From: Ruminococcus sp.
GTDB taxonomy: Bacteria > Bacillota > Clostridia > Oscillospirales > Ruminococcaceae
Assembly: GCA_017523285.1 (NCBI GenBank)
Contig: JAFWWU010000034.1
Location: 1 to 36,246, forward strand
Direction: 5' to 3'
DNA length: 36,246 nt
How positions within the stretch are numbered: position 1 is the stretch's first letter; each line of letters starts with the position of its first letter. The notes beneath the pieces were generated by a model that was not told the origin of the DNA, ran no database searches, and saw only the letters and a program-made list of their open reading frames with translations. The translations under genes were made by a program, and so were the position numbers. Below are positions 3,201-15,521 of this stretch, piece by piece.

Positions 3201-4008
3201 CGAATAAAGTATAATACTCAGGTCCATCAAGTATATATCCCTTGCTGTTGCGATAGTTCTTATTGTCATCACCGATAACCTTACCTGTTCCGTCAACTGT
3301 ACCATCGGCAGTTTTGCATGTCATTTCAGCTTTGCCGTCACAGTCAAAATCAGCTACGAGGAACTGTGTATAATGTGCGCCCGCACGAATATTTCTTCCG
3401 AGGTCAACTCGCCAAAGTCGTTTACCTGCAATAGTGTAACAATCTATATATACATTGCCTGTATTTCCTTCCTGTGAATTATCTTTCTGATTTGAAGGAT
3501 CCCACTTGACAAAAATTTCATAAGTACCATCACCGTCAACGTCACCGACAGAACAGTCATTTGCGCTATATGTACATCCTGAAGCTGTAGGAACGCTAAG
3601 AGGAATATCAAAATAATCCTTGTTTGAAATAAGATTGCATTTTTCAGAATTTACTACTTTTCCGTCTGATAGATAATCTACTCTGTATGCGGATTTATTG
3701 TTTCCACTTTTATCAAGAAAACATGTAGCCTGATCTTTTTTACTTGTGTAGATAAGTTCATCATTACGATAAAGCTTGTATTCAGCATTATCAGAATCAT
3801 TTGCAAGAAATCTCCAGCTTACAAGCATTCCATTTCCTGTATTGATTGCAGAAATACCTCTGTTAAGATACTCTACAATGTTTTTTCCTGTTCCACCGCT
3901 TCCATATGCCGCGTCTGCTTTTGAATAATTCTGCATTGTACATGGAATAAGTCCCATACTAAGTGCAATAGACGTGACAATCGACGCAATTCTACCCGAT
4001 TTCTTCAT
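292..4008 (-). CDS. Cellulosomal rhamnogalacturonan lyase (PL11) / acetylesterase (CE12-like) / CBM13 / dockerin
   Basis: Secreted pectinase of 1238 aa. Start chosen at the ATG at 4006-4008, which follows GAGAGGG; the longer frame to 4038 lacks a ribosome site. Residues 1-34 are a signal peptide. About 36-616 match PL11 rhamnogalacturonan lyases, with several Asp-rich Ca-binding stretches (DVDGDG, DFDCDG, DVDNDG). About 636-772 form a galactose-binding-like beta domain, and 780-960 an SGNH esterase: GDS at 786-788, GIND at 855-858 and DNIH at 948-951 carry the nucleophile, oxyanion and Asp-His residues. About 993-1135 is a ricin-type lectin (CBM13), then a Thr-rich linker and a dockerin from 1169. 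By family knowledge, the lyase cuts the GalA-Rha backbone of rhamnogalacturonan I and the esterase removes acetyl groups. The dockerin predicts attachment to a cohesin such as those encoded at 28.7-36.2 kb. The neighbouring AraC gene is a likely regulator. Confidence 0.93.
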   Translation of the reverse strand: MKKSGRIASIVTSIALSMGLIPCTMQNYSKADAAYGSGGTGKNIVEYLNRGISAINTGNGMLVSWRFLANDSDNAEYKLYRNDELIYTSKKDQATCFLDKSGNNKSAYRVDYLSDGKVVNSEKCNLISNKDYFDIPLSVPTASGCTYSANDCSVGDVDGDGTYEIFVKWDPSNQKDNSQEGNTGNVYIDCYTIAGKRLWRVDLGRNIRAGAHYTQFLVADFDCDGKAEMTCKTADGTVDGTGKVIGDDNKNYRNSKGYILDGPEYYTLFDGATGKALDTVEYAFPRGKVSDWGDNYGNRVDRFLGAVVYCDGVKPSAVSVRGYYTRMTAVAYDVVDKKLVVRWKYDSGNDPKKGYHNGNHNCMPADVDNDGKQELVLGSTCIDDNGKLLWCNNQGHGDAMHLGDLLPDREGLELWMCHENSPYGVSLIDAKTGKNIFHKNHSKDTGRACCGNILASNPGAEFWGATGNDIFDANGKTIATNKPAQNFMIYWDGDLEREILDGTKIDKYVSTNKINRLLTADGCAANNGSKNNPGLAADIMGDWREELVVRTSDSKYLRIYNTKYTTDVRLTALMHDVQYRTQAAGEQNCYNQPAHTSFYLGSDEALPERPNVTINGKSISSQPSQPSQPTTPVTPSEILKFDLGAKAQNGYTSVSATDKYNSSNGYGFSSGSGVSDVAAAGNGALSDAVQFTGNTTFDVDLPVGLYSVKVTLGNTTRTSIYMENMLQIVNMTGNNAVDEILIPVTDGKLNIRAAAGKAGYAYTISAIEISRISTNASLPNTVWLCGDSTVCNYYPKSSSTQAGWGQVLDKYIDDSWNVRNMAASGQYAKGFVDAGQFDAIEHYGKKGDVYIISIGINDTNYSDSTEYYNTVTDMVKRAKKKGMEVILVKQQGRKGDYTKNPLLTSRWFAAELDKIGKEQNVKVVDLFNLFQNYCVSIGTDKADALFYDNIHPNRQGALKLAELFAMQIDWNSVSDSEPGTPVTPPQTDAVMLQDGAMYMLKNANSGLYMEVSESTATNGMNVHQGTENNSGIWKAVSAGNGYYYLYTQSGDGKTFVLDVSGKKTEDGTNIEIYTYKGGDNQQFKFVKNSDNTYSILTKISGDASCIEIEGKSTEKGGNVQQWKVNGGNNQKWILEPIAENIQNTTTPATTITTPINTTTALTTQEKIVYGDVNCDGSVDIADAAIVKLYIINPNKYTLSSNGIKNADVHNVGNGINIQDVLAIQSYVINRISMLPVGN

Positions 4009-4074
4009 AATAATTACCCTCTCTTTTCGCATTAACATAATTTAATGCATATACAATTAATTAAATTAAACTGA

Positions 4075-4105
4075 AATTTAATCTTCCGTAAACTTCAATT
4101 TAATC
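4075..4105. promoter_or_regulatory. Paired AATTTAATC direct repeats, possible AraC-type operator
   Basis: AATTTAATC occurs at 4075-4083 and 4097-4105, 22 bp apart start to start, which is two helical turns. A partial third copy (AATTTAAT) lies at 4038-4045. The pair sits just downstream of the pectinase -10. AraC proteins bind direct half-sites at about this spacing, so binding by the divergent regulator is a reasonable inference, but the AT-rich background makes chance repeats possible. Confidence 0.35.
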
Positions 4106-4107
4106 AA

Positions 4108-4136
4108 ATTATATCATTCATATAATAAAGTTGCAA
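4108..4136 (-). promoter_or_regulatory. Sigma-A-type promoter of the pectinase gene
   Basis: On the minus strand TTGCAA (4136-4131) and TATAAT (4113-4108) are 17 bp apart. The -10 is consensus and the -35 matches 4 of 6. It reads towards the start at 4008, leaving a leader of about 90 nt that contains two AATTTAATC copies. Confidence 0.7.
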
Positions 4137-4156
4137 TGATAAATCCTATCATTCAC

Positions 4157-4185
4157 TTGACGTTTTACATCAAAAATGATATAAT
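4157..4185 (+). promoter_or_regulatory. Sigma-A-type promoter of the AraC-family gene
   Basis: TTGACG (4157-4162) and TATAAT (4180-4185) with a 17-bp spacer, reading to the ATG at 4241. It lies 21 bp from the pectinase promoter, back to back. Confidence 0.75.
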
Positions 4186-4240
4186 TTGAACAAAGTTCAC
4201 CAACAGCTATGAAGAATATTGTTATTTTTGGAGGGGCGCT

Positions 4241-5029
4241 ATGCATATATATCAGCTTGGCTGGAACTGGATACATCCACATCCATTTACTATAGAGCGT
4301 CCTAATGGACATTTCGGCTCACAATTGATTCTTGTACGCTCAAAAGGTCGTATAGTTGTAAATGACAGAGAATATCATGTTGAAAAAAACACAGCTTTTC
4401 TTCTTGAAGGCGGTGTCCCGCATTGTATATATTCAGATGGCGAGGATTATGCTGATGACTGGATTCGTTTTAATTTCGAACAGGAAGATGTTGAATTCAT
4501 TAACTCGTTGAATCTGACATTCAATGTGCCTATTCTGATTAAAGATGAAGGTATTTCAAAGCTTATTTCAGCATGCGTTGATATATTTGATACAGAAATT
4601 GATAAAAAAAGTGAAACACTTGATTATATCCTTAAAGCTATTTTACGTCATATAAGTGAATACGGAAATATAAGAGATAAAAATACTCCTAATTTTTATA
4701 CGGATATTCTGAATGATATCAAAAAAAGAATTTACAGTAATCCCGCATATAATTGGAGTGTTCCGCAGATTGCTGCAGAAATGAATATTTCTGTTTCTCA
4801 TTTTCAAAGACTATACAAAAAACAGTTCGGGATATCGTGTATAAATGATGTTTTTATAAGCCGTATGCAGTACGCTAAGGATTTACTGCTAAAAACAGAT
4901 TACTCTGCAAAAGAAATCGCTCTTATGTGCGGTTATCAGAATTACGAGCATTTTTCACGTTCATTTACAAAATATGCCTGTGTTTCACCTGTACAATATC
5001 GCAGTAAATATAAAGAACCTGTTGATTGA
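4241..5029 (+). CDS. AraC-family transcriptional regulator with cupin-type sensor
   Basis: 262 aa, start at ATG 4241 after GGAGGGG. The N-terminal half reads as a small cupin-type AraC ligand-binding domain (residues about 20-85, including the HxV-x-KNTAFLLEGGVPH stretch). The C-terminal 100 residues hold the two helix-turn-helix motifs of AraC/XylS proteins, beginning near W172 (WSVPQIAAEMNISVSHFQRL) and near Y221 (KEIALMCGYQNYEHFSRSF). This size and layout are typical of sugar-responsive activators in Clostridia. It is divergent from the rhamnogalacturonan lyase gene and shares its spacer, so control of that gene by a pectin-derived sugar is the natural inference. The ligand cannot be read from the sequence. 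Confidence 0.9.
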   Translation: MHIYQLGWNWIHPHPFTIERPNGHFGSQLILVRSKGRIVVNDREYHVEKNTAFLLEGGVPHCIYSDGEDYADDWIRFNFEQEDVEFINSLNLTFNVPILIKDEGISKLISACVDIFDTEIDKKSETLDYILKAILRHISEYGNIRDKNTPNFYTDILNDIKKRIYSNPAYNWSVPQIAAEMNISVSHFQRLYKKQFGISCINDVFISRMQYAKDLLLKTDYSAKEIALMCGYQNYEHFSRSFTKYACVSPVQYRSKYKEPVD

Positions 5030-5253
5030 ATTACTTTATTGAATTCGGTAGATTGTTAAAGCTTCGAGTGGTGGCAACTGTTCAGAATATCATATAACGA
5101 GTATGATCGATTTATTAAATTTATTTTGACGTTCACTATAATTACAGCACATTGCAATGTTTTTGTAAATCCCCAAGCATTAACCAGAGGATACCCGACA
5201 TTACCGTAAGCCCCATATAAGACCCATGGGCTGTTTTTGCATAAAAAGAAAAA
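5030..5253. other. Intergenic DNA between araC-type gene and integrated element
   Basis: No convincing gene. A weak hairpin of AGCCC and GGGCT arms followed by GTTTTT near 5206-5234 could end the AraC transcript. The right part is the native downstream flank of tRNA-Glu before the element integrated. Confidence 0.3.
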
Positions 5254-5285
5254 CTCTCAAATGGCTGTTTTAAGCCATTTGAGAG
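5254..5285 (-). terminator. Original tRNA-Glu operon terminator, displaced by the element
   Basis: A perfect 12-bp stem (5254-5265 with 5274-5285) and an 8-nt loop, followed on the minus strand by TTTTCTTTTTAT. A near-identical copy lies at 15406-15437 after the present tRNA-Glu gene. The left copy would have ended the tRNA transcript before integration. Confidence 0.75.
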
Positions 5286-5294
5286 CAATGTTGG

Positions 5295-5317
5295 TGGTGA
5301 CCCGTACGGGAATTGAA
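5295..5317. repeat. attL core (copy of tRNA-Glu 3' end)
   Basis: 23 bp identical to 15447-15469, covering CCA, the 3' acceptor strand and part of the T arm. The identity stops at 5318 where the intact tRNA continues, so this is a 3' fragment and not a second gene. Confidence 0.85.
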
Positions 5318-5545
5318 ATGAGGTCTTGACTTAATGCGATTTCAGTCTAATTCAAACAATCCCCTATTTTCCGTGTTTTCTCGTTGTTGGATTTTGCTGA
5401 AATCAAGTAATTTAAAGTCATTTTCAGTAAAAATAAGTACTAAATAAAGACCAAATTGCAAGGCGAAATACCTGTGTTAAGCATTACTGATTATTCATCA
5501 GCAGTGCTTTTACTATCACAAACGGATATTATTTATAGTTATGTA
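5318..5545. other. Left end of the element, non-coding
   Basis: No gene seen. Contains one AAAGACCA (5446-5453), matching four copies at the right end and a candidate integrase arm site, and an imperfect 12-bp hairpin at 5480-5508 that may act as the terminator behind the LRR gene. Confidence 0.5.
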
Positions 5546-7387
5546 TTATAAAGTTGTTATTAGTTTTAAAGCATATTTTAAGATTGCGAGTGAATCCTGT
5601 ATATTAATACCGTTTCCGCTTTCGTTTACATCAGCGTTTATTAATCCCTGTTTTGTGATAGAATAATCTTTACTATTTATAAGATAACATTTTATGATAA
5701 CAACATCGGCAATATCTACTCTTCCATCACAGTTTGCATCACCCAAAAGAATATCTGTTGGTTGTGTGGTGCTTGTAGTTGTTGTAACTGGAACAGTTGT
5801 AGTAGTGGCTGTGGTTACTGTTGAATCTTTTGTAGTGGTCTTGGTTGTAGTTGCAGTTAATGTTGTTGTGGCAGAATGTGTAGTTGTTACGACTGGTGAT
5901 GTAGTGATTATATCGAGTTTAGGAATAAGCGTGAATACTTCTGTTTCTCCATTTCCAAGGTCATAAGTATATGTAACTTTTATTGTTGGATCGGAAACAG
6001 TCAATGTAGTTCCTTTGATTGTTGCGTTTGTCCAGTTGGTAGCTTTTGTGATATCAAAAGCTTTAAGAGATGATAAGTCATATTGATTGTTGGTAAGTTT
6101 AATTTCATGAGTATTATCTTTACAGTATGCATTCAAATTAATATTCTTGCTTAAATCTAAAGCTGTTAGTTGATTCTTGCTACAGTCGATATCTTCTAAT
6201 GCTATATTTTTGCTTAAATCTAAAGCTGTTAATTGATTCTCGCTACAGTCGAGGTATTTTAGCACTGCATTATTGTTGGTATTAAGGGAGAGAAGTTGGT
6301 TGTATTGGCAAACTAAAAGTTCTAATTCAGTGTTTTGGCTTATGTCAAGGTGTGCTAGCTGATTGCTGTAACATTGCAGAGTAATCAGTTTACTATTATT
6401 GCTAGTATCAAGAGTTGTTAATCTGTTATAGCCACAGAGTACTTCTTCTAGTGCTATATTCTTACTTGTATCTAAAGCTGTTAATTTGTTTTCATTACAG
6501 CGGATTCTTTCTAACACTACATTATTGCTGATATCAAGAGATGATAGTTGATTATTACTGCAAAATAAGTCGACTAGTTCAGTGTTTTTGCTTATATCAA
6601 GAGATAATAGTTGATTATAGTCACATTCTAGGCTGATTAGTTCAGTGTTTTTGCTTAAATCAAGAGATGACAGTTGATTATTTTTACATGCTAGGTCGTA
6701 CAGTTTAGTATTATTACTTAAATCAAGAGCTGTAATTTGATTCTTATTGCACCATAAAGCTCCTAAATTTTTACATTTATTTACGTCAAGAGAAGTAAGC
6801 TGGTTTTGTTCACAATATAATTTCCTGAGTTCAGTATTTTTGCTTATATCGAGGTCTGTCAACTTGTTATTGTTACAGTAAAGTGTTTGCAATTCTGTAA
6901 AATGTTCAATTCCTTCAAGACTTGATATTTCTTTATTATTAACAACTAATTCTAAAACTTTTGAAATTTCATCTGATGTAAGTACATCGTCATCATTTGT
7001 GTCAAATTTTTCGTTTACATAATCACGGAAGTTTTTATCAGGAAAATTAATTGTGTTGATTGATACAGATTTATCAAACGGAATTTCTGCAGGCGGTACG
7101 AATGAGGTTGTTGTAGTTGAGACTGTTGTGGTTGTCTTTGCTGTTGTCACAGTTGTTTTTGCGATAGTGGTAGATGTTTTATTGTCAGCAAGAATAATAC
7201 TGCCATCTGTGCTGAGCAGAATGCTTGTGTCATTATGAAATTCTTTTCCCTGTGATAGCGCTTCATTAACTATAACATATTCTGTGGCAGTAGCGGATAT
7301 GTTGTTAGTGATTTCCGGGTAATACAGCATATTGCTACATACAGCCCACGAAGACAGTAATGCTATTGTTTTTTTGAATTTGTTCAT
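5546..7387 (-). CDS. Secreted leucine-rich-repeat protein with C-terminal dockerin
   Basis: 613 aa. Start chosen at the ATG at 7385-7387 behind AAGGAGA; the frame upstream lacks a ribosome site. A signal peptide (residues 1-35) is followed by a Thr-rich linker, then an EF-hand-like cap (FDTNDDDVLTSDE). About twelve tandem 21-residue LRRs follow, of the pattern LxxLxCxxNxLxxLDxS, with a Cys at the same place in nearly every repeat, and then one degenerate repeat. A beta-rich spacer and a second Thr-rich linker lead to a dockerin with GDANCDG and NGINIQD calcium loops. The dockerin predicts attachment to a scaffoldin. LRRs bind proteins or glycans; no catalytic domain is visible, so a binding or inhibitor role is likely. 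It lies inside the mobilizable element. Confidence 0.9.
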   Translation of the reverse strand: MNKFKKTIALLSSWAVCSNMLYYPEITNNISATATEYVIVNEALSQGKEFHNDTSILLSTDGSIILADNKTSTTIAKTTVTTAKTTTTVSTTTTSFVPPAEIPFDKSVSINTINFPDKNFRDYVNEKFDTNDDDVLTSDEISKVLELVVNNKEISSLEGIEHFTELQTLYCNNNKLTDLDISKNTELRKLYCEQNQLTSLDVNKCKNLGALWCNKNQITALDLSNNTKLYDLACKNNQLSSLDLSKNTELISLECDYNQLLSLDISKNTELVDLFCSNNQLSSLDISNNVVLERIRCNENKLTALDTSKNIALEEVLCGYNRLTTLDTSNNSKLITLQCYSNQLAHLDISQNTELELLVCQYNQLLSLNTNNNAVLKYLDCSENQLTALDLSKNIALEDIDCSKNQLTALDLSKNINLNAYCKDNTHEIKLTNNQYDLSSLKAFDITKATNWTNATIKGTTLTVSDPTIKVTYTYDLGNGETEVFTLIPKLDIITTSPVVTTTHSATTTLTATTTKTTTKDSTVTTATTTTVPVTTTTSTTQPTDILLGDANCDGRVDIADVVIIKCYLINSKDYSITKQGLINADVNESGNGINIQDSLAILKYALKLITTL

Positions 7388-7424
7388 TGATTTGAATTCT
7401 CCTTGGTTAAAAATGTTTTTAAGC

Positions 7425-7450
7425 ATATTACAATATCGACATTGTAATAT
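7425..7450. promoter_or_regulatory. Inverted repeat upstream of the LRR-dockerin gene
   Basis: ATATTACAAT (7425-7434) and ATTGTAATAT (7441-7450) form a perfect 10-bp inverted repeat with a 6-bp centre. It sits between the promoter and the start codon, so it could be an operator or a leader hairpin. Confidence 0.45.
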
Positions 7451-7465
7451 ACTTTTACATATAAT

Positions 7466-7494
7466 AGTGTACACTGTAAAAAAAGTTTTGTCAA
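7466..7494 (-). promoter_or_regulatory. Promoter of the LRR-dockerin gene
   Basis: On the minus strand TTGACA (7494-7489) and TACACT (7471-7466) with a 17-bp spacer. The -35 is consensus and the -10 matches 4 of 6. Confidence 0.55.
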
Positions 7495-7569
7495 GTGTTT
7501 TAATATATAATTTATAAAAATAAGAGCGTAATCTTACAGCTATGCTGATTTTTCAATCAAAGATAGCAT

Positions 7570-8667
7570 TTATTTCCTAATCCTCACCCTATACTCCTCA
7601 AACTCAATCTCTCCATTTTCAGCCTTGCTTCTAAGTTCAAGAGCATAATCTGCCCACTCAGCAAATTCAGCCTGAGTCATCTTCTTTTTGAGGTATCGGG
7701 CATAATGCTGCTTGTAAGCCTTATTATAAACATTCCAGTAAGGATTGGTCTTGATTTTATCGGCATATTTCTTTCTGTGCCCCATATCACGGCATACTCT
7801 GCCGTCCATACCCTCTATTTCTCTTGTGCAGTAATCAGAGAATATACCCGCTTCAAGTAGAAAATACTTACCGCAGTAGCCGCATTTCTTCGGCAGATAA
7901 TGCAGTTCCAGTCCCTTGAATAATTCAATATACAGATACCCTCCGAGTGTTGTGAAAGTGTAATACTGACACAATTCGGGGGATTTCTTTTTCCACAGGA
8001 CTTCGTAAGATAACCGCATTACTCCCGACGGTTCTAATCGTTCATAAGGCCGTGCACTGAAATATGGTTTATCCCTGCGGTCATAAACAACTTGTGCAGT
8101 TTCGTTATTATCAAGATAGCGACTTTGACTGTGGATTTTCTCTAAGAACGGCTCGAAGGTACGCTTTACACGGAGAATGTCCTCTATAAAAACTCTCATT
8201 TCCGTTGCAAAGGCTTTTAATCTGTCGTTGAGCTTGTAAATATCCCTGAGAAGCTCTGCGTCCTCCATATCGTTTGAGCCGATACGCACATAGAAGTGGT
8301 AATGTTCTTCCGTATCAGCGTCAATTAGTTCATCTTCTTCAAATGCCCAGTTGTGCAGATTGAGAATGGTGCGTAACGTATCACGCTGTATATCCATAGA
8401 ACTGTATGGCGGAGTGTTGGCTATCATCTGCTCTATTTTGGCATAGAATGCAATCGCACCCTGAAACAACTTTTCACTTTCATCAGCTTCACGCATATCT
8501 TCGGGATAACGCAGTATCGTTTCATATCGTTTGCATTCAGAGTAAAGCTTATCAAGCTCCCTATAACGCTTATCAAGTATCTTTTCAAGAATTTCACCGA
8601 CTACATATTTCTTTGCTCCGTTTATATAAACCGTAGTACCATTAAAATACGCTGAAAAACCTGTCAT
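7570..8667 (-). CDS. DUF6076-like mobile-element protein
   Basis: 365 aa. Start at the ATG at 8665-8667 behind AAGGAGAAG; a longer frame to 8748 has no such site. The N-terminal half is charged and helical. The C-terminal third has a Cys cluster (CGYCGKYF, later DYC and a further Cys in GRVCRDMGHRKKY) that resembles a zinc-binding site, followed by a basic helical tail. I believe this matches the DUF6076 proteins often found on integrated elements of gut Clostridia, from memory of the family and not a search. Function is unknown; DNA binding is plausible from the Cys cluster and basic region. It is divergent from the excisionase-replication genes. Confidence 0.75.
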   Translation of the reverse strand: MTGFSAYFNGTTVYINGAKKYVVGEILEKILDKRYRELDKLYSECKRYETILRYPEDMREADESEKLFQGAIAFYAKIEQMIANTPPYSSMDIQRDTLRTILNLHNWAFEEDELIDADTEEHYHFYVRIGSNDMEDAELLRDIYKLNDRLKAFATEMRVFIEDILRVKRTFEPFLEKIHSQSRYLDNNETAQVVYDRRDKPYFSARPYERLEPSGVMRLSYEVLWKKKSPELCQYYTFTTLGGYLYIELFKGLELHYLPKKCGYCGKYFLLEAGIFSDYCTREIEGMDGRVCRDMGHRKKYADKIKTNPYWNVYNKAYKQHYARYLKKKMTQAEFAEWADYALELRSKAENGEIEFEEYRVRIRK

Positions 8668-9088
8668 TGCAACTTCTCCTTTAGTAGTTATTGCTTTAAT
8701 TGTATCACATCTACTATTTTCAGTCAACTCAGAAAGTCCCATTTTCAAAAATATTTTCTTTCAGTTTTTTCATTGTGGGACTTTTTTAACGTGGTGAATT
8801 TAAAGAAATAAAATTTTAAACAGCGTATTTAAGCCGTTTGAGAAGCACTTTTATAAAAATAGAAGTCACCTCTGAAAAAATAGAGTGTATGCGAAAATAG
8901 ATGTGAAAATAGCTGTAAATAGAGTATGCATATCACATCTATTGACTTTGCGGATTATGTCGGATATAATGAGAATGCAACGTTGCAGAAGCACCTTGAC
9001 AACTGAATATTCCTCTCCGGACACGCCTGTTACATAGCGTAAAGCTGTGTCGGTCAAAGACCGATTTTATCAAAAAGGAGGAGTAGCA
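8668..9088. other. Divergent control region of the element
   Basis: Non-coding spacer between the DUF6076-like gene (minus) and the excisionase-like gene (plus). It holds a partial, decayed copy of the tRNA terminator hairpin near 8816-8845, several AAATAG repeats (8855-8922), an 11-bp inverted repeat (8896-8906, 8933-8943) and a strong plus-strand promoter. Confidence 0.55.
8942..8970 (+). promoter_or_regulatory. Strong promoter for the excisionase-replication operon
   Basis: TTGACT (8942-8947) and TATAAT (8965-8970) with a 17-bp spacer. The inverted repeat AATAGATGTGA / TCACATCTATT (8896-8906 and 8933-8943) runs into the -35, which would let a repressor block it. Confidence 0.75.
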
Positions 9089-9379
9089 ATGACTACTACC
9101 AACAGACGTGTGCTTACCATTAAGGAAGCAGCAAAACTTATTGACGGACTTACAGAATATCGTATCCGTCAGATGTGCATTTCAGGTCAGCTCCCGTGCT
9201 TTATGGCAGGGAAAAAGTATCTGATTGCAGAAGAAAATCTGTATAAGGCTGTGTTCGGGAGAGGGGAGCCCCCGCTGGCAGTTCGTAGCGAAGTTTCTGA
9301 AAATCCACAGAATACAACTCGACCGAAAATGACTGTCGGCACAAATACGAGGGGAGGTGATGTGGCTTGGCCGCAATGA
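9089..9379 (+). CDS. Excisionase-like helix-turn-helix protein
   Basis: 96 aa. The ATG at 9089 follows AAAAAGGAGGAG. The first 60 residues (TIKEAAKLIDGLTEYRIRQMCISGQLPCFMAGKKYLIAEENL) match the MerR-like winged helix of the excisionase/helix_turn_helix_17 proteins carried by conjugative elements. The remaining tail is low in structure. Small proteins of this kind bend DNA at the attachment site and steer the integrase towards excision. Its reading frame overlaps the start of the replication gene, so the two are co-translated. A role as an operon regulator instead of a directionality factor is possible. Confidence 0.8.
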   Translation: MTTTNRRVLTIKEAAKLIDGLTEYRIRQMCISGQLPCFMAGKKYLIAEENLYKAVFGRGEPPLAVRSEVSENPQNTTRPKMTVGTNTRGGDVAWPQ

Positions 9380-10704
9380 GAGAAGAAAAAATTGAAGAAA
9401 TCAATGCTGAACTCCCAGCACCAGCGTGGCTTGTAGATAACAAAATTCACGAGGTTGTGTTTTGCAGGGAGCTTCTCAGCGAACACGAGGTTAAGTGTAT
9501 CAACAATCAGTTCTACGATGTTGACGGATATATTCCCGACAGCGAAATCAAAGCTGAGATTTATGAAAAGCTAAAACCGCATATTACAGCAGGACTTGCA
9601 AACAGAGTAACACAGCTTCTCTCTGCGTTACAGTATGAAGCGTATTCTCCTGAAATTGTACTTGACCCTAATGAAATTCATATTCTGAACGGAACTCTTA
9701 ATATTGACGGAACATTTACGGAAGAAAAGAAATTCTGCTATAACCGTCTAAACGTCAGGTATAATCCAGAAGCGGAAGTGCCGACTGTGTTTCTGAAATT
9801 TCTGGAGGAGCTTCTTGAAACGGAAGATATTGAAACATTACAGGAATGGCTCGGCTACTTACTGACGCCAAGCACAAAGGCTCAGAAAATGTTAATGCTT
9901 GTAGGAAACGGCGGCGAGGGTAAAAGTCGTATAGGCGTACTGCTCAAAGAGATATTCAAGGAAGGTATGGCGACAGGAAATCTGCAATACCTTGAAACAA
10001 ATCCATTTGCCCGTGCTGTGCTGGAGAAAGCGTATCTGTTTCTTGATGACGATATGAAAATGGAAGCTCTAACGCAGACAAATATGCTGAAAACTATTAT
10101 CACAAACGAGGGTCCTATGCTTATTGAAAAGAAACGAGTTCAGTCTTATCCTGCAAGTATCTTTGCAAAGCTTATGGGGTTTGGTAACGGAACACTTAAT
10201 GCGGCGAATGATAAATCAGACGCATTCTTCCGCAGGCAGATTATTATTTCTACCAAGCCAAAGCCTGTGGATAGAGTTGATGACCCGTTCCTTGTGGAGA
10301 AATTCATTGACGGCAAGGAAGGAATATTTCTGTGGATGTTTAAAGGACTACAAAGACTGTATGCCAATGATTTCAAGTTTACCATAAGTCAGAGGACGGC
10401 TGATAATCTTCAGAAAAGCATTGAGGATAGTTGTAATATTATCGGGTTTATGCAGGACGAACAGCTTGTGAAATTCGGCGCAGACCTTGAATGCTCAACA
10501 GCAGATTTGTATTCTGGTTACTGCTATTGGTGTGGTCTTAACAGCGTTACGGCCGTGAAAAAGGAAAGTTTTAATTTGTGGCTGAAACAGAATTATGCCA
10601 AGTACGGAATAGAATACAGCAATAATGTACAGAGCCACTCCAATGGCAAAAAGGCAAGAGGATACCGAAGAATTGACACGACTTACAGAAGCGTGGTGAA
10701 ATAA
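9367..10704 (+). CDS. SF3-helicase / D5-type replication protein
   Basis: 445 aa from a TTG at 9367 that has GGAGGTGA 6 bp upstream; an ATG at 9376 in the same frame overlaps the previous stop as ATGA but is 15 bp from that site. The N-terminal 150 residues resemble the D5_N region of phage and plasmid primase-helicases. A P-loop follows (GNGGEGKS at 180-187), a Walker B (LFLDDD at 224-229) and an SF3-like core with FGNGTLNAANDKSDAFFRRQ. Such proteins open DNA at an element's own origin, allowing replication of the excised circle. No primase catalytic domain is visible in this length. Expressed with the excisionase-like gene; followed by a hairpin-rich spacer that could be the origin. Confidence 0.85.
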   Translation: MAAMREEKIEEINAELPAPAWLVDNKIHEVVFCRELLSEHEVKCINNQFYDVDGYIPDSEIKAEIYEKLKPHITAGLANRVTQLLSALQYEAYSPEIVLDPNEIHILNGTLNIDGTFTEEKKFCYNRLNVRYNPEAEVPTVFLKFLEELLETEDIETLQEWLGYLLTPSTKAQKMLMLVGNGGEGKSRIGVLLKEIFKEGMATGNLQYLETNPFARAVLEKAYLFLDDDMKMEALTQTNMLKTIITNEGPMLIEKKRVQSYPASIFAKLMGFGNGTLNAANDKSDAFFRRQIIISTKPKPVDRVDDPFLVEKFIDGKEGIFLWMFKGLQRLYANDFKFTISQRTADNLQKSIEDSCNIIGFMQDEQLVKFGADLECSTADLYSGYCYWCGLNSVTAVKKESFNLWLKQNYAKYGIEYSNNVQSHSNGKKARGYRRIDTTYRSVVK

Positions 10705-11093
10705 ACTGCAAAAATGATGTATTCGGTGTATTTGATGTATAAAACGGCTTCAAATCAGTGTATTCGGAATACATTGCTGATACACCGAGCCGTATTGAAA
10801 GAAATGCCGTATTCAGCGAAAAAACACACCGAATACGGCAAATACACCGATTTCCGAGTTAAGTTTACACGAGGATTTTTTGAGGCGGTCGGCTGAGTCC
10901 GAGTCAGTATACTGTTTGAGGACGAAGTTGTGCAGCCATAGGATGTGAGGCTGTATTGCCGAATAGGGAGTGCAGTAGGAACGACTGCCGCAATGATACT
11001 TTTGATAGAAGCCTATGCGGATGTCGAAAGTATCTTTGCGTTACTTTCGCAGAAAGTAACAAAGGCAAAAGCAAGCTTATTCAGAAAGGAGAA
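10705..11093. other. Hairpin-rich spacer between replication and relaxase genes
   Basis: 389 bp with no convincing gene. A nested hairpin is built from ACGGCT (10744-10749), ATCAG and GTATTC against GAATAC, CTGAT and AGCCGT (10788-10793). A second has GCCGTATTC (10806-10814) against GAATACGGC (10831-10839). GTATTCGG and ACACCGA words recur in both directions. This may be a replication origin or single-strand origin. The right end holds a candidate oriT (11026-11060). Confidence 0.5.
11026..11060. other. Candidate oriT of the MobV relaxase
   Basis: Overlapping inverted repeats that share an arm: GAAAGTA (11026-11032) with TACTTTC (11042-11048), and GTTACTTTC (11040-11048) with GAAAGTAAC (11052-11060, 3-nt loop). 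Shared-arm alternatives just before the relaxase gene are the arrangement known for the pMV158 oriT of the MobV family. The nick site cannot be assigned by eye. Confidence 0.5.
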
Positions 11094-12239
11094 TTGCTTA
11101 TCGAAAAAAGAAGTATCAGCGGCGTTATCGGTAAGGGCGACCTTTATCATAACAACCGCAGATTTGTTGCAGAAAATGTTGACAGGAGCAGAACTCAGGA
11201 CAACATTACAATTATCAGCGAGGATGTGAAATCAGTATATCACGAGCTGTTTGATAAATCGCTCGCAGAACACAACTCCAAGCAGAAACGCAAGGACAGA
11301 ATCATCAAGGATTACCACGACCACATCAGGCACAGCCGACAGGAAAAGGAGTTTCACGAGGTAATATTTCAGATTGGCAATAAGGATGATACTCCCTGCG
11401 GCTCTGATATATCCCAAAGAGCAACCGAAGCTCTGAAACAATATGCGGAGAGCTTTCAGAAGCGCAATCCACACCTGAGAATGTTCAACGCTGTTATTCA
11501 TCTTGATGAAGCAACACCGCACATTCATATAGACTTGGTTCCGTTTGCAACGGAGCAGAAGCGAGGACTATCAACAAGAGTTTCGCTTTCAAAGGCATTG
11601 GAACAGCAAGGCTTCAAAAGCGAGGGCAAAATGAATACCTGTTCAAAGCTATGGATTGAAAACGAAAAACAGGTGATTGCGGATATTATGAAAACTCTCG
11701 ATATTGAATGGGAGCAGAAAGGAACTCACAACGAGCATTTGTCAGTTCTTGATTACAAGAAAAAAGAGCGAAAAAAGGAAGTTGTGGCACTTGAAAATAA
11801 GCTGTCAAGGCTTTCTGACAAGGAAACGAAAATCAAGGCTATTGATAATATTCCTGTTAAGAAAACGGTGTTCGGTGATAATCTGACAGTCAGCCGTGAG
11901 GACTATGAAAGCCTTGCGGCTACTGCAAAGAAACAGATTGCCTCTGAGAAAAAGGAAAAGAAGCAAAAGGCTGAAATTACTCAGTTACAACAGGAAAACG
12001 CTCAGCTTAAATCAGAACTTACTGCCGAGAAGAAAAAGAATGCAGACTCAAAATCCATAAATCTGCGTATAGAAAATGCAAAGCTGAAAGAACAGAATTC
12101 CAAAATGGAGTCTGTACTGAAAAAAGCTGAGGAGTTTCTGAAAGGCAAAGGACTATATGAGCTGTTTCAGAATTTTGTTCTCGGAATTGGTAGGAATAAG
12201 AATAGAAATAAGGACGGATTGCGTCAAATGCAAAAGTAA
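11094..12239 (+). CDS. mobV: MobV/Pre-type relaxase, last codons replaced by an IS30 insertion
   Basis: About 381 aa from a TTG at 11094 just after AGAAAGGAG; a further in-frame TTG at 10956 would put the oriT hairpins inside the gene, so the later start is preferred although its spacing is short. The N-terminal RSISGVIGKGDLYHNNRRF and the HLDEATPHIHIDLVPF block (histidines for metal binding) mark a plasmid-recombination/mobilisation relaxase, which nicks oriT and pilots the strand into a recipient. Residues from about 220 on form a long charged coiled coil. The natural end was KDGLE-stop, visible beyond the insertion at 14011-14025; the inserted DNA now supplies RQMQK-stop instead. The change is five residues at the tail, so function is probably kept. 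Confidence 0.85.
   Translation: MLIEKRSISGVIGKGDLYHNNRRFVAENVDRSRTQDNITIISEDVKSVYHELFDKSLAEHNSKQKRKDRIIKDYHDHIRHSRQEKEFHEVIFQIGNKDDTPCGSDISQRATEALKQYAESFQKRNPHLRMFNAVIHLDEATPHIHIDLVPFATEQKRGLSTRVSLSKALEQQGFKSEGKMNTCSKLWIENEKQVIADIMKTLDIEWEQKGTHNEHLSVLDYKKKERKKEVVALENKLSRLSDKETKIKAIDNIPVKKTVFGDNLTVSREDYESLAATAKKQIASEKKEKKQKAEITQLQQENAQLKSELTAEKKKNADSKSINLRIENAKLKEQNSKMESVLKKAEEFLKGKGLYELFQNFVLGIGRNKNRNKDGLRQMQK
12209..12221. repeat. Left target-site duplication of the IS30-family element
   Basis: TAAGGACGGATTG, repeated exactly at 14007-14019 on the other side of the element. Confidence 0.8.
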
Positions 12240-12436
12240 AAGCAACACTTAAGAAAAATCTGATATCAAACATTAAAAAAACAGCAATTTTTAAGCGGTA
12301 AAATGATAAAAACATCAGATAAACAGCACAAAAATAGTAAAAATGAGTATAGCAAAGCTGAGCGTTGCATTTTTATGTGCAAAAGTAAATGCAACTCCCT
12401 TTTTGTTAATATGAATAATACTGTGTTTTACTTTGA
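12240..12436. other. Non-coding left part of the IS30-family element
   Basis: No gene. Holds a subterminal copy of the terminal motif (TGTGCAAAAGTAAATGCAAC at 12376-12395), itself preceded by an inverted half (GTTGCATTT near 12364-12372), which could form a hairpin behind the transposase gene. Confidence 0.5.
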
Positions 12437-13663
12437 TTATTTGTCAAGTAGACACGGACGCATCACAACCTGATCCGCTGGAATTTTTCTAAGCCCAAGC
12501 ATATATGGCAATTTCTTTGCAATAAATTCTTTTGCCACATCATATGGACATTTACCATCAAGACTATCTCTTGAAATACTGTTAATATGATTAGTAAGAA
12601 GAGTTATATCATCTTGAGTAAGTTTATCAAACGATCTTCCTTTTGGTAGTACCATACGAATATATTCATGACTTCTTTCTATATGTGGTTTCTGCCATGA
12701 AGCCATTCTATCACAAAAGAATACACGAGTACATGGTGAACCATATTTGCTCTTTTCTAATGCTGCAGGATTTTTGAATTCACTTCCGTTGTCTGTTAAT
12801 ATTACAGGAAACAATCTTCTGATAATATTAAGTCCTAGCATATCCTCAAGCTGTTTGAATACATTCTCCACACATTCCTGTGATGATGTTTCAAGCAGAA
12901 ATATGAGCATAAAATCATATTTTGTAAATATCATTGTAAGTAGACATTTACCTTTTTCACGTGAACCATGTACTGTATCCATTTCAACTACGCAAAGTTC
13001 AGGATGTTGTTCTATAAATCTCTTGAAGTCTTCGTATGTACGCCCTTCTCGATATTTATATGGATAATTTTCTGTTTCTTTTCCTTTGCGCTTTTTGTAA
13101 CGCACTTTTCTTGGTAAATCAATATTACGAGCGTCAAGAATACACTTATCTAAGTAATTATACATTGTTCTTCGTGAGATGCTGATTTCATCACTGTGAT
13201 TGGCATAAATATGATTCAGTGATTGTCCCTTTTTTATTAATGGAGAAACAAATTTATTGAGTTCTTTTATTTCGCTTTTATCAAGATGAATTGATTTTCT
13301 TGATTCTGATTTTACAGTATGACTGCTCTTATCCGCTTTTCTTGCATGATAATATGCATGCTCTCTGGAACAGAAATCTTGATTCGGACAATTATTGCAT
13401 ACAAAAGGCGCCTTATCAAGTTTACGGCATTGCAGAGGAGCAAAATCAGTACAGCTTTGAGTATTGCAAGAGCTTTTCTTTTTGCATTCACCAAAATGTG
13501 CACAACGTGCTGTTTTAGGCTGTATAAATGTTCGATATTTTTTTACTTCCCGAGAAATTGTAGAGGGTTGATAACCAAGCTCATTAGCAATTTCTCGAAA
13601 GCTATAACCGTATGCGATGTATTTTTCTATCATACATCTGCTTGTAAAACTTAAGTGTTTCAT
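12437..13663 (-). CDS. IS30-family transposase
   Basis: 408 aa, start ATG at 13661-13663 behind AGGAGG. The N-terminus has the IS30 helix-turn-helix (FREIANELGYQPSTISREVKKY). A Cys-rich stretch follows (CAHFGECKKKSSC, then CRKL, CNNCPNQDFC), likely a zinc knuckle found in this subgroup. The C-terminal half is the DDE integrase core: D in VVEMDTVHGS, D in ILTDNGSEF and the following E in HIERSHEYIR. It cuts and joins DNA at the element's inverted repeats. Length fits an intact, full-size transposase, so the element may be active. Confidence 0.93.
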   Translation of the reverse strand: MKHLSFTSRCMIEKYIAYGYSFREIANELGYQPSTISREVKKYRTFIQPKTARCAHFGECKKKSSCNTQSCTDFAPLQCRKLDKAPFVCNNCPNQDFCSREHAYYHARKADKSSHTVKSESRKSIHLDKSEIKELNKFVSPLIKKGQSLNHIYANHSDEISISRRTMYNYLDKCILDARNIDLPRKVRYKKRKGKETENYPYKYREGRTYEDFKRFIEQHPELCVVEMDTVHGSREKGKCLLTMIFTKYDFMLIFLLETSSQECVENVFKQLEDMLGLNIIRRLFPVILTDNGSEFKNPAALEKSKYGSPCTRVFFCDRMASWQKPHIERSHEYIRMVLPKGRSFDKLTQDDITLLTNHINSISRDSLDGKCPYDVAKEFIAKKLPYMLGLRKIPADQVVMRPCLLDK

Positions 13664-13763
13664 TTTACCTCCTGTTAATGAAAATTTACTCTTTCATTAT
13701 ACAGGATCACACATAAAAATCAAAACAATCATTTTATGCTTCATTTCGCATTTATTCCACGGT

Positions 13764-13876
13764 CTATTGACAACGAGCCTCTGAGGACGTGGTTTTCAGG
13801 CAGATGCGGCAAGTGTCGCTTGATGCTTTATCTGCCTTGCTGAAAGCCTACCACGCCCTCTTCTCATTGTCAATAG
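13764..13876. repeat. Long imperfect inverted repeat in the non-coding part of the IS
   Basis: CTATTGACAA (13764-13773) pairs with TTGTCAATAG (13867-13876), GAGGACGTGG (13783-13792) with CCACGCCCTC (13851-13860) and CAGGCAGAT (13797-13805) with ATCTGCC(TTG) from 13830. CAAG/CTTG lie in the loop. Almost the whole 113 bp can fold on itself. It lies upstream of the transposase start. Confidence 0.65.
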
Positions 13877-13903
13877 CTTTCGCGGCATAAAAGCTATTTT
13901 TAT
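13872..13903 (+). terminator. Hairpin with U-tract overlapping the long inverted repeat
   Basis: AATAGCTTT (13872-13880) and AAAGCTATT (13890-13898) pair perfectly over 9 bp and are followed by TTTAT, as in a plus-strand intrinsic terminator. Its left arm overlaps the right arm of the 113-bp structure, so the two folds exclude each other in part. Confidence 0.45.
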
Positions 13904-14006
13904 GTGCAGAACTAAACGCAACACTACTCTCTATTTTTTGCTGTTTTGTGCAGAGGTAAATGCAACATTTTTGTTCCTTATGTTGCATTTACTTTTGCAT
14001 TTGACC

Positions 14007-14019
14007 TAAGGACGGATTG
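14007..14019. repeat. Right target-site duplication of the IS30-family element
   Basis: Exact copy of 12209-12221. Joined to the following GAATAA it restores the original relaxase end. Confidence 0.8.
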
Positions 14020-14043
14020 GAATAACGTGTTCGCAGGTTTTAC

Positions 14044-14073
14044 TTGACAGTATTACACTTTAAAGTGTATAAT
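14044..14073 (+). promoter_or_regulatory. Integrase promoter with palindromic operator
   Basis: TTGACA (14044-14049) and TATAAT (14068-14073), spacer 18 bp. Inside the spacer lies a perfect 16-bp palindrome, TACACTTTAAAGTGTA (14054-14069), reaching the -10. A dimeric repressor there would shut off the integrase. Confidence 0.7.
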
Positions 14074-14121
14074 TGAAACACAGGTAAAAGCCTTGCGGTT
14101 TATGACAGGAGGAATAAACCA

Positions 14122-15330
14122 ATGGCAACGGTAACAAAGCGTGGTAACAGTTATAGAATTAAAGTATCTTGCGGATACGATGTGAACGGTAAACAGGTTG
14201 TTCAGACGAAAACGTGGAAACCTGAACCTAATATGACGGCTCGTCAGATTAAGAAAGAGCTTGACAGACAATGCGTTATGTTTGAAGAAGAATGTAAAAT
14301 GGGACAGGTTGTTGCTACAATAAAGTTTGAAAAATTTGCAGAACAGTGGTTTGAGGAATATGCTGTAATTAATCTCAGACATACTTCATATGAGAGAATG
14401 CGACAGCTTACTCAGCGGGTATATCCTGCAATCGGACATCTAAGACTTGATAAGATTACAAGCAGACATATACAGCAGTTTGTGAATGATTTGATTATCA
14501 ATGGTGAAAATCAACGTACAGGTAAACCGCTTTCGCGAAAGACTGTAGTTCATCATCTGAGTTTTATTTCCGACGTTTTCAGTTACGCTATGAAAATGGA
14601 TATGCTCAGCGATAATCCGTGTAGGAGAGTAACCGTTCCAAAATGCGAAGTCAAGGAAAAGGATATTTACACTATTGAGGAGATTTCTCATATTTTTGAG
14701 CTTCTCGATGGTGATGATGTTCCGATAAAGTTCAGAGTGTTCTTTAAGCTTGCTGTATACAGTGGCTACCGCAGAGGAGAACTACTCGGACTGGAATGGA
14801 AAGATGTGGATTTTGAGAATAATATAATAAATGTCCGCAGAACTTCCAACTATACAGCCGACAAGGGAATATATACTGATACCACAAAAACAAAGAAATC
14901 ACAGCGCAGTCAGAAATATCCTCAGCACGTTATGGATATGCTGAAAGAGCTGAAATTGGAACAGAATGCAGAAAGAACACGTCTTGCAGACAAGTGGATT
15001 GAAACAGACCGCTTATTTATAAAGTGGGACGGCAGACCTATGCACAATAACACCCCGTACTTCTGGTTCACGGAATTCTGTGAGAAAAATAATGTGCGTT
15101 TTTGTGATATTCATTCTCTCAGGCATTTGCATGCCAGTCTATTAATTAACGCCGGTGTGGATGTTGTAGCAGTGTCGGGAGATTTAGGACATTCTCAGGT
15201 TTCAACGACAAGTAACATTTATTGCCATATGTTTCAGGAAGCACAGGCGAGGGCAAGCAATGCCATTGCTGAGGCTCTGAGCTTTGACAATAAAAAACAG
15301 GGAACTGAACAAACTCAGCTCCCTGCGTAA
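14122..15330 (+). CDS. int: Tyrosine recombinase, element integrase
   Basis: 402 aa, ATG at 14122 after ACAGGAGGA. The N-terminal beta-rich arm-binding domain (GNSYRIKVSCGYDVNGKQVVQTKTW) is followed by a SAM-like core-binding domain (about 60-165) and the catalytic domain. Catalytic residues visible: R in SGYRRGEL (217-218), H331-S-L-R334, H357 in GDLGHSQ and the nucleophile Y367 in NIYCHMF. This is the layout of Tn916-type integrases. It would recombine the 23-bp core in tRNA-Glu at both ends of the element. Four AAAGACCA copies begin at its stop codon and are candidate arm sites. The gene lies next to the target tRNA and has its own promoter. Confidence 0.95.
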   Translation: MATVTKRGNSYRIKVSCGYDVNGKQVVQTKTWKPEPNMTARQIKKELDRQCVMFEEECKMGQVVATIKFEKFAEQWFEEYAVINLRHTSYERMRQLTQRVYPAIGHLRLDKITSRHIQQFVNDLIINGENQRTGKPLSRKTVVHHLSFISDVFSYAMKMDMLSDNPCRRVTVPKCEVKEKDIYTIEEISHIFELLDGDDVPIKFRVFFKLAVYSGYRRGELLGLEWKDVDFENNIINVRRTSNYTADKGIYTDTTKTKKSQRSQKYPQHVMDMLKELKLEQNAERTRLADKWIETDRLFIKWDGRPMHNNTPYFWFTEFCEKNNVRFCDIHSLRHLHASLLINAGVDVVAVSGDLGHSQVSTTSNIYCHMFQEAQARASNAIAEALSFDNKKQGTEQTQLPA

Positions 15331-15379
15331 AGACCAGTGCAAAGACCATTTTTTCAAAATAAAGACCAAATAAAGACCA
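15329..15379. repeat. Four AAAGACCA repeats, candidate integrase arm-binding sites
   Basis: AAAGACCA at 15329-15336, 15341-15348, 15361-15368 and 15372-15379. A fifth copy at 5446-5453 lies near the other end of the element. Repeats close to both ends fit arm-type sites read by the N-terminal domain of the integrase. Confidence 0.55.
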
Positions 15380-15405
15380 AAACGGATTTCACTGTAAAAA
15401 GAAAA

Positions 15406-15437
15406 CTCTCAAACGGCTGTTTTAAGCCATTTGAGAG
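15406..15437 (-). terminator. Element-borne terminator now serving tRNA-Glu
   Basis: 12-bp stem (15406-15417 with 15426-15437), minus-strand tail TTTTCTTTTTAC. It differs from the displaced copy at 5254-5285 by one stem base, which gives a G-U pair in the minus-strand RNA but a mismatch on the plus strand. Confidence 0.75.
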
Positions 15438-15446
15438 CAACTGTGT

Positions 15447-15469
15447 TGGTGACCCGTACGGGAATTGAA
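15447..15469. repeat. attR core in tRNA-Glu
   Basis: Exact partner of 5295-5317. Confidence 0.85.
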
Positions 15470-15521
15470 CCCATGATTCCGCCGTGAAAGGGCGGTGTCT
15501 TAACCTCTTGACCAACGGGCC
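15447..15521 (-). tRNA. tRNA-Glu (anticodon UUC)
   Basis: 75 nt with CCA encoded. Acceptor GGCCCGT pairs with ACGGGTC, the T loop is TTCAATT and the anticodon loop CTTTCAC. Its 3' 23 bp are the integration core, so the element rebuilds the gene on insertion. Confidence 0.95.

Follow-up and report, generated by a model that had tools for sequence, protein, structure and literature searches.

Small integrative and mobilizable elements (IMEs) of streptococci are the closest described counterparts of the element reported here, a 10.15-kb segment of a Ruminococcus sp. contig (JAFWWU010000034.1, assembly GCA_017523285.1) that carries a gene for a leucine-rich-repeat (LRR) protein with a dockerin. 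We analysed the whole contig, 36,246 nucleotides, hereafter the window. In the accessible parts of its description, IMESag-rpsI of Streptococcus agalactiae (MOBV1 relaxase, approximately 9 kb; PMC5090054) is likewise a small IME with a MobV-type relaxase, inserted at the 3' end of a gene; its kind of target is that of a sister of the window element (L131), whose integrase end lies, as read by eye, beside the ribosomal protein S9 gene. Unlike IMESag-rpsI, the window element has a tRNA-Glu target, a DUF5906 replication-type gene and dockerin cargo, and excision, which has been demonstrated for IMESag-rpsI (PMC5090054), is only predicted for the window element. A wider account of streptococcal IMEs describes tyrosine integrases that insert at tRNA genes or at genes of ribosomal proteins, mostly with one target per integrase family (PMC5357655). 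As here, there is tandem accretion at one site and one relaxase class combined with different integrases, but the hosts and integrases are others, and the available text mentions no cellulosome (PMC5357655). The cargo named in the accessible part of a review of IMEs comprises resistance, restriction, toxin-antitoxin, protease, transporter and bacteriocin genes, with no cellulosome part (PMC5704250).

Dockerin genes have been found on mobile DNA of another kind. In the available sections, the Ruminococcus albus 7 plasmids pRUMAL01 and pRUMAL02 are reported to encode nine dockerin proteins, for which plasmid exchange between rumen bacteria was proposed in 2014 (PMC4081043). Those are replicating plasmids of a species without a genuine cellulosome, whereas here the element is integrated and the host has scaffoldins (PMC4081043). 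An earlier note on this DNA, made from the letters alone, knew of no described case of a cellulosome subunit carried by a mobilizable element; given the R. albus plasmids, this holds at most for integrative elements. Our literature searches, which left subscription papers largely outside their scope, returned no dockerin gene in an integrative element among the matches listed. LRR-dockerins that likewise combine LRRs with a dockerin, behind a signal peptide that is putative in the window protein, are described in Ruminococcus flavefaciens FD-1; the accessible text does not place them on an element and contains neither “mobile” nor “horizontal” (PMC2930009). The same two words are absent, by word search, from the available part of a 2024 survey of cellulosome bacteria (PMC11557425).

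Boundaries of the Element

The ends of the segment and the cargo beside its left end are as follows.

5295-5317: left attachment (att) copy, 23 bp identical to the tRNA-Glu 3' end; left boundary of the element
5442-5456, plus strand: left arm-type site of the integrase (AAATAAAGACCAAAT), 124 bp inward of the att core
5453-5512: conserved left-end module with a hairpin, matched in the element of Ruminococcus sp. SIG539, where it lies outboard of different cargo
5546-7387, minus strand: LRR-dockerin cargo gene, 613 amino acids, with 21-residue LRRs and a C-terminal type I dockerin
15357-15381, plus strand: paired arm-type sites of the right end
15406-15437: terminator hairpin, right end of the element
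15447-15469: right att copy, within the intact tRNA-Glu gene
15447-15521, minus strand: tRNA-Glu (TTC), the integration target, called by ARAGORN

The 23-mer TGGTGACCCGTACGGGAATTGAA occurs in exactly two copies in the window, at 5295-5317 and 15447-15469, where none is expected by chance; no third copy with up to three mismatches is present anywhere in the window, including 5318-15446. A similar terminator hairpin precedes each copy, which lengthens the repeat to 74 bp at 91% identity. Together with the tRNA call, these data bear out the earlier note, which had taken the two copies as bounds.

The arm-type sites give a second kind of marker. The 12-mer ATAAAGACCAAA has three copies in the window (5444, 15359, 15370; 0.02 expected), all beside att copies. 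We scanned 64 loci (the window and 63 others, two of which are one contig of genome G034) for related integrases and att cores; a tblastn recheck recovers the integrase at 58 of these loci. The tRNA-Glu core flanks nine elements on both sides (the window, L113, L114, L120, L121, L122, L125, L222 and L231), and the remaining loci are cut at a contig end or at the 20-kb fetch limit, or are sited elsewhere. Seven of the nine, the window included, have a repeat of their own arm type at a distance of 113-128 bp inward from the far core. The repeat in the window is 15 nucleotides long, a length reached in none of 79 interior control windows; L113, L121, L125 and L231 likewise have no control window with so long a repeat. 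Arm types vary from element to element, and therefore the left end found here belongs with this integrase. The left-end module aligns with the left end of the SIG539 element over 60 columns (local score 31, reached in none of 1000 shuffles), and 5453-5512 is the best place for this match in the whole window.

A left end at 5317, marked by the att core, the matching arm site and the conserved module, is thus well supported and puts the LRR-dockerin gene inside the element, as the earlier note had proposed. That note had also said that a left end between 7.4 and 9.0 kb would speak against it; we looked for one there and found none.

Mobilization Backbone and Exchangeable Slot

To the right of the cargo gene lie the genes of the backbone, followed by the integrase.

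7570-8667, minus strand: DUF6076 gene, 365 amino acids by homology, where the shared backbone begins on the left (the mechanical open reading frame, ORF, runs to 8748)
9047-9379, plus strand: excisionase-like HTH_17 protein (Pfam, below cut-off)
9367-10704, plus strand: DUF5906 primase/helicase-type replication protein (Pfam)
10852-10878: candidate origin of transfer (oriT), 27 bp, upstream of mob
10956-12239, plus strand: MobV-type relaxase (Mob_Pre), its C-terminal end altered by an insertion sequence
12222-14006: insertion sequence, which we take to be IS30-like from its HTH_38 match and layout; transposase at 12437-13663, minus strand; absent from the relative L131
14122-15330, plus strand: tyrosine integrase of the tRNA-Glu family (Pfam phage integrase)

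The integrase, excisionase, replication and relaxase genes read by the earlier note are thus recovered as Pfam families, the excisionase only below the cut-off. The relaxase is clear (Mob_Pre, 53.3 bits against a cut-off of 25.5), and the 27-bp stretch upstream of it is nearly invariant across four related elements, which suggests a putative oriT. No type IV secretion genes are found among the seven ORFs of the element by Pfam (at least 110 amino acids, main frames; shorter ORFs were not scanned). A VirD4-type coupling protein is encoded elsewhere in the genome and could belong to a helper element. With an integrase, matching att ends and a relaxase of its own, the segment is best described as an IME whose mobilizability is predicted. 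Relatives of the primase are absent among viral contigs.

The tRNA-Glu integrase family is present in 70 of 125 genomes of the genus (E up to 1e-60), and a genome scan with the primase returns 71 loci. In three of these the primase is 85-93% identical: Ruminiclostridium sp. RGIG8806 (L131), Ruminococcus sp. SIG546 (L132) and Ruminococcus sp. SIG539 (L133, the same contig as L127). DUF6076, Xis, primase and MobV stand in this order in all of them, at 85-97% protein identity. In each, similarity ends at window position 7570 or 7571 on the left, 183 bp upstream of the LRR-dockerin start codon, and at 12221 on the right, apart from one extra 30-bp match in L131 (14044-14073), upstream of the integrase.

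What surrounds this core differs. The SIG539 element has a serine recombinase and sits at tRNA-Glu; L132 has an integrase of 38% identity at tRNA-Thr; L131 has one of 30% identity beside the gene named by eye as ribosomal protein S9. To the left of DUF6076, where the window has the LRR-dockerin gene, the SIG539 element has an operon of histidine kinase, ABC and response-regulator genes, and in L132 two genes whose products, judged by eye, resemble secreted proteins or lipoproteins, together with an AAA/McrBC pair, extend up to a second att copy with arm sites. Such differences in recombinase and slot content on a shared backbone indicate that both are exchangeable around one mobilization core.

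Three further observations concern this backbone. In SIG539 (L127:10241-11740 within L127:1360-11744), the approximately 85-90% identical backbone with a serine recombinase is likewise inserted at the 3' end of tRNA-Glu; recombinases of unrelated classes thus converge on a single target. A 195-amino-acid gene lies between Xis and primase in L131 and L132 (with a CHC2 zinc finger by Pfam in L131) and is missing from the window (9258-9408) and L127. The insertion sequence is flanked by unusually long 13-bp direct repeats (12209-12221 and 14007-14019), and the region 12209-14019 contains several copies of an 18-bp repeat, both internal and terminal.

The Cargo and the Host Cellulosome

The likely start of the LRR-dockerin gene is the ATG at 7387 rather than the GTG at 7474 of the mechanical ORF; the ribosome-binding site was read by eye only. 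Pfam finds LRR_4 and Dockerin_1 (PF00404, 24.1 bits against a cut-off of 22.9). The product looks secreted, with a signal peptide predicted from a lysine-rich start and a hydrophobic stretch, both judged by eye. Its repeats are 21 residues long (63-bp spacing in the DNA) and by eye fit the 21-residue consensus LxxLxCxxNxLxxLDL, given for the IRREKO class in the accessible text of PMC2946307. The second calcium loop of the dockerin, DVNESGNGINIQD, has 13 residues. In the available part of the FD-1 work, a 13-residue second loop is characteristic of the group 1 dockerins of R. flavefaciens (groups 1a-1c), with the motifs VxIMQxxxNP and ALxIQKxxL (PMC2930009); neither motif has a strict match here. 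Among solved chains, 5m2s (Doc8) and 5m2o (“Group I Dockerin”) are the nearest.

Two further features concern the dockerin and its host.

5546-5781, minus strand: dockerin module and end of the linker, 236 nucleotides, 90.3% identical to the LRR-dockerin gene on contig C24
28688-36246, plus strand: host scaffoldin cluster with 11 cohesin matches, incomplete at the contig end

The host genome has 92 dockerin matches, about one per 31 kb. Its cohesin matches number 14, of which 11 fall in the scaffoldin cluster (28.8-36.1 kb of the window), 13 kb from the element. With a home-made profile we recovered 85 dockerin domains from 56 own-genome regions (a set that excludes contigs C61 and C163), the window and three further loci. 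The cargo dockerin is 93.5% identical to that of a protein on C24 and 85.5% to that of a protein on C131, the next best aligned being 71%. Both proteins, encoded elsewhere in the same genome, belong to the BspA class of LRR-dockerins (LRR_5), the one on C131 with a whole-protein dockerin score (21.1) just under the Pfam cut-off of 22.9. Among the matches listed for other genomes, identity reaches 61% at most in the dockerin region and is 34-60% in the LRR region. The cargo thus corresponds to the LRR-dockerin type of its host. The nucleotide match to the C24 gene ends at the stop codon, and upstream of it the LRR parts of the two genes belong to two different classes.

Other tRNA-Glu Elements

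Are dockerin genes found in other elements of this type? They are present in four of 11 att-bounded segments (the nine elements and two longer segments at neighbouring loci), that of the window among them. An att-bounded element of genome G048 encodes a transglutaminase with an N-terminal dockerin (23.7 bits). A 29-kb segment of G097 (L322 and L119; G097:C89:14003-43368) encodes GH5-dockerin, RGL11-dockerin and GH5-CBM-dockerin proteins by Pfam, and an RGL11-CE12-type protein whose dockerin is detected by the home-made profile only. A 35-kb segment of G050 (L115 and L116; G050:C15:29428-64521) encodes a 1523-amino-acid BspA-LRR-dockerin that passes the cut-off and a GDSL-dockerin that falls short of it. 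Arm-like repeats lie 127-129 bp inside the far core in both long segments; repeats of that length also occur in control windows (17 of 259 and 9 of 322). As side observations, the G097 segment has two AraC-like regulators and an integrase between its two tRNA-Glu att cores, and the G050 segment has restriction-modification-like genes (by eye).

The earlier note had suggested a search for the LRR-dockerin gene in elements of this type. A second LRR-dockerin does turn up in the att-bounded segment of G050, but dockerins are not enriched. Their density is 30-43 matches per Mb in 10 of 11 genomes and about 27 in G034, whose element we excluded from the estimate; the counts may be too low for genomes in which scoring stopped at 150 candidates. 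For all 11 segments approximately 6.4 matches are expected and 6-8 are seen, depending on the profile; the counts seen rest on the home-made profile. In the seven other elements Dockerin_1 is absent from the 25 of 93 Pfam families listed (61 ORFs of at least 120 amino acids), with one or two matches possible. The counts seen are not above background density and we rejected enrichment; dockerins are carried at about the background rate, not preferentially.

Further cargo among these seven elements includes D12 methylases, FokI- and AlwI-type restriction enzymes and a SIR2-like protein. In one of them (L125) a FokI-type restriction enzyme (9198-10922) and a SIR2-like NTPase protein (11017-13680) are encoded, so defence genes are frequent neighbours in the cargo slot. 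The window's own genome has a second tRNA-Met/tRNA-Glu pair (L111; G000:C92) with a related integrase that has two stops and an adjoining PDDEXK_4 nuclease gene.

The Left Flank

Immediately outside the left att copy is a stretch that resembles the end of another element.

5207-5294: left flank, with arm-like repeats and a hairpin arranged as at the right end of another element

Several element right ends match it at 73-76% over approximately 110 bp including the core, and its arms are, by eye, most like those of a G097 element. No integrase remnant is found beside it, only chance-level matches (E 0.5 and 7.2). The flank has the appearance of a right end left by a second tRNA-Glu element that has decayed. 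The element studied here thus seems to stand in tandem with a decayed one, at an insertion site that is not virgin. The AraC and rhamnogalacturonan-lyase-esterase-dockerin genes at 292-5029, adjoining the flank, could be old cargo of that decayed element.

Discussion

We consider it very probable that the segment is an IME with an exchangeable slot that holds a host-type LRR-dockerin gene as cargo. The boundaries, backbone, variable slot and dockerin match can be read directly in the DNA; excision, transfer, secretion, docking and LRR function are predicted from them. The tyrosine integrase would have inserted a circular form into the tRNA-Glu 3' end, rebuilding the tRNA. The MobV-type relaxase would nick the oriT upstream of mob, and the mating channel would be borrowed from a resident conjugative element. 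The cargo slot lies between the conserved left end and DUF6076, its present occupant being the LRR-dockerin gene. In a recipient with matching scaffoldins, the LRR-dockerin would become part of the cellulosome and expose an LRR surface for binding.

Does the LRR-dockerin gene really belong to the element? The three related backbones all lose similarity at 7570/7571, and with dockerin matches about every 31 kb in this genome a nearby one is unremarkable, so the true left end might be sought at approximately 7.5 kb, the LRR-dockerin being an ordinary chromosomal neighbour gene. However, the stretch between the two att copies offers no core for such an end, the integrase's own arm site and the left-end module (5442-5512) lie outboard of the LRR-dockerin, and in L132 the cargo left of DUF6076 likewise reaches a second att copy with arm sites. 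We regard this reading as highly improbable. The gene could also be left from an older accreted element whose middle att copy was lost, 5318-15446 then being two fused elements. Several tRNA-Glu loci do have two cores and two integrases in tandem, and the left flank resembles a decayed element end. Such a fusion is nevertheless very improbable: both ends of the segment share one arm type although types differ among elements, and the left-end module matches that of the backbone sister.

Other alternatives accept the cargo and differ on what it means. The segment might be a fossil, with bounds and cargo as described but the ability to excise and transfer lost. The end of mob is occupied by an insertion sequence, the left neighbour element has decayed, and the related integrase with two stops at the second tRNA-Glu locus indicates that decay occurs in this genome. 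Yet the reading frames of integrase, relaxase and primase are free of stops, and both att cores and the arm sites are intact; a fossil is unlikely, if less so than the other alternatives. It is also conceivable that the LRR-dockerin serves the element, a scaffoldin-displayed LRR promoting cell contact or adhesion in mating. While G050 has a second tRNA-Glu att-bounded segment with an LRR-dockerin, two more LRR-dockerins are encoded elsewhere in the window's own genome, sister elements hold unrelated cargo, and LRR-dockerins are common in R. flavefaciens FD-1, as far as the accessible text goes (PMC2930009). We strongly doubt this role.

A number of findings weigh against an IME with exchangeable host-type cargo. 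The earlier note had called for a comparison with related Ruminococcus genomes for an empty tRNA-Glu site; DNA searches with both flanks in 100 of the 125 genus genomes, none conspecific, found no such site. The metH-tRNA flank is matched in G057, the best relative at the locus, where the contig stops at the tRNA-Glu 3' end; the AraC/rhamnogalacturonan-lyase flank is matched in G034, with no tRNA within the 16 kb examined. The genome is a draft of 2.84 Mb in 174 contigs, one of which is the window in full. L114 and L122, two of the nine complete elements, have no left arm repeat (a run of N adjoins the far core in L114), and equally long repeats occur in 3 of 54 control windows for L120 and 3 of 118 for L222. 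The slot in L131 holds a serine recombinase and then meets the contig end, leaving no clear cargo slot. For the nine elements (7.8-14.9 kb) approximately 3.9 dockerin matches are expected and 2 are seen. Finally, the LRR-dockerin gene has a G+C content of 32.5%, below the 40-41% of the backbone; this fits a separate origin but is no proof of one.

It is tempting to go further and suppose that cellulosome parts circulate among Ruminococcus species in a mobile pool made up of tRNA-Glu elements, in which cargo adapts to a new host by swapping only its dockerin with that of a resident gene. We offer this tentatively, as a possibility that we consider rather unlikely. A 90% match that ends at the stop codon, with different LRR classes upstream, is the trace expected from a dockerin swap. 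If true, a foreign LRR surface would have been re-plugged into the local scaffoldins by that swap.

We describe here a bounded element with a host-matched subunit gene, together with dockerin cargo in three other genomes of the genus. Bounded elements that carry dockerins make cellulosome exchange by mobilization testable, by excision polymerase chain reaction (PCR) and mating assays. Cellulosome parts may thus pass between bacteria like other mobile cargo.

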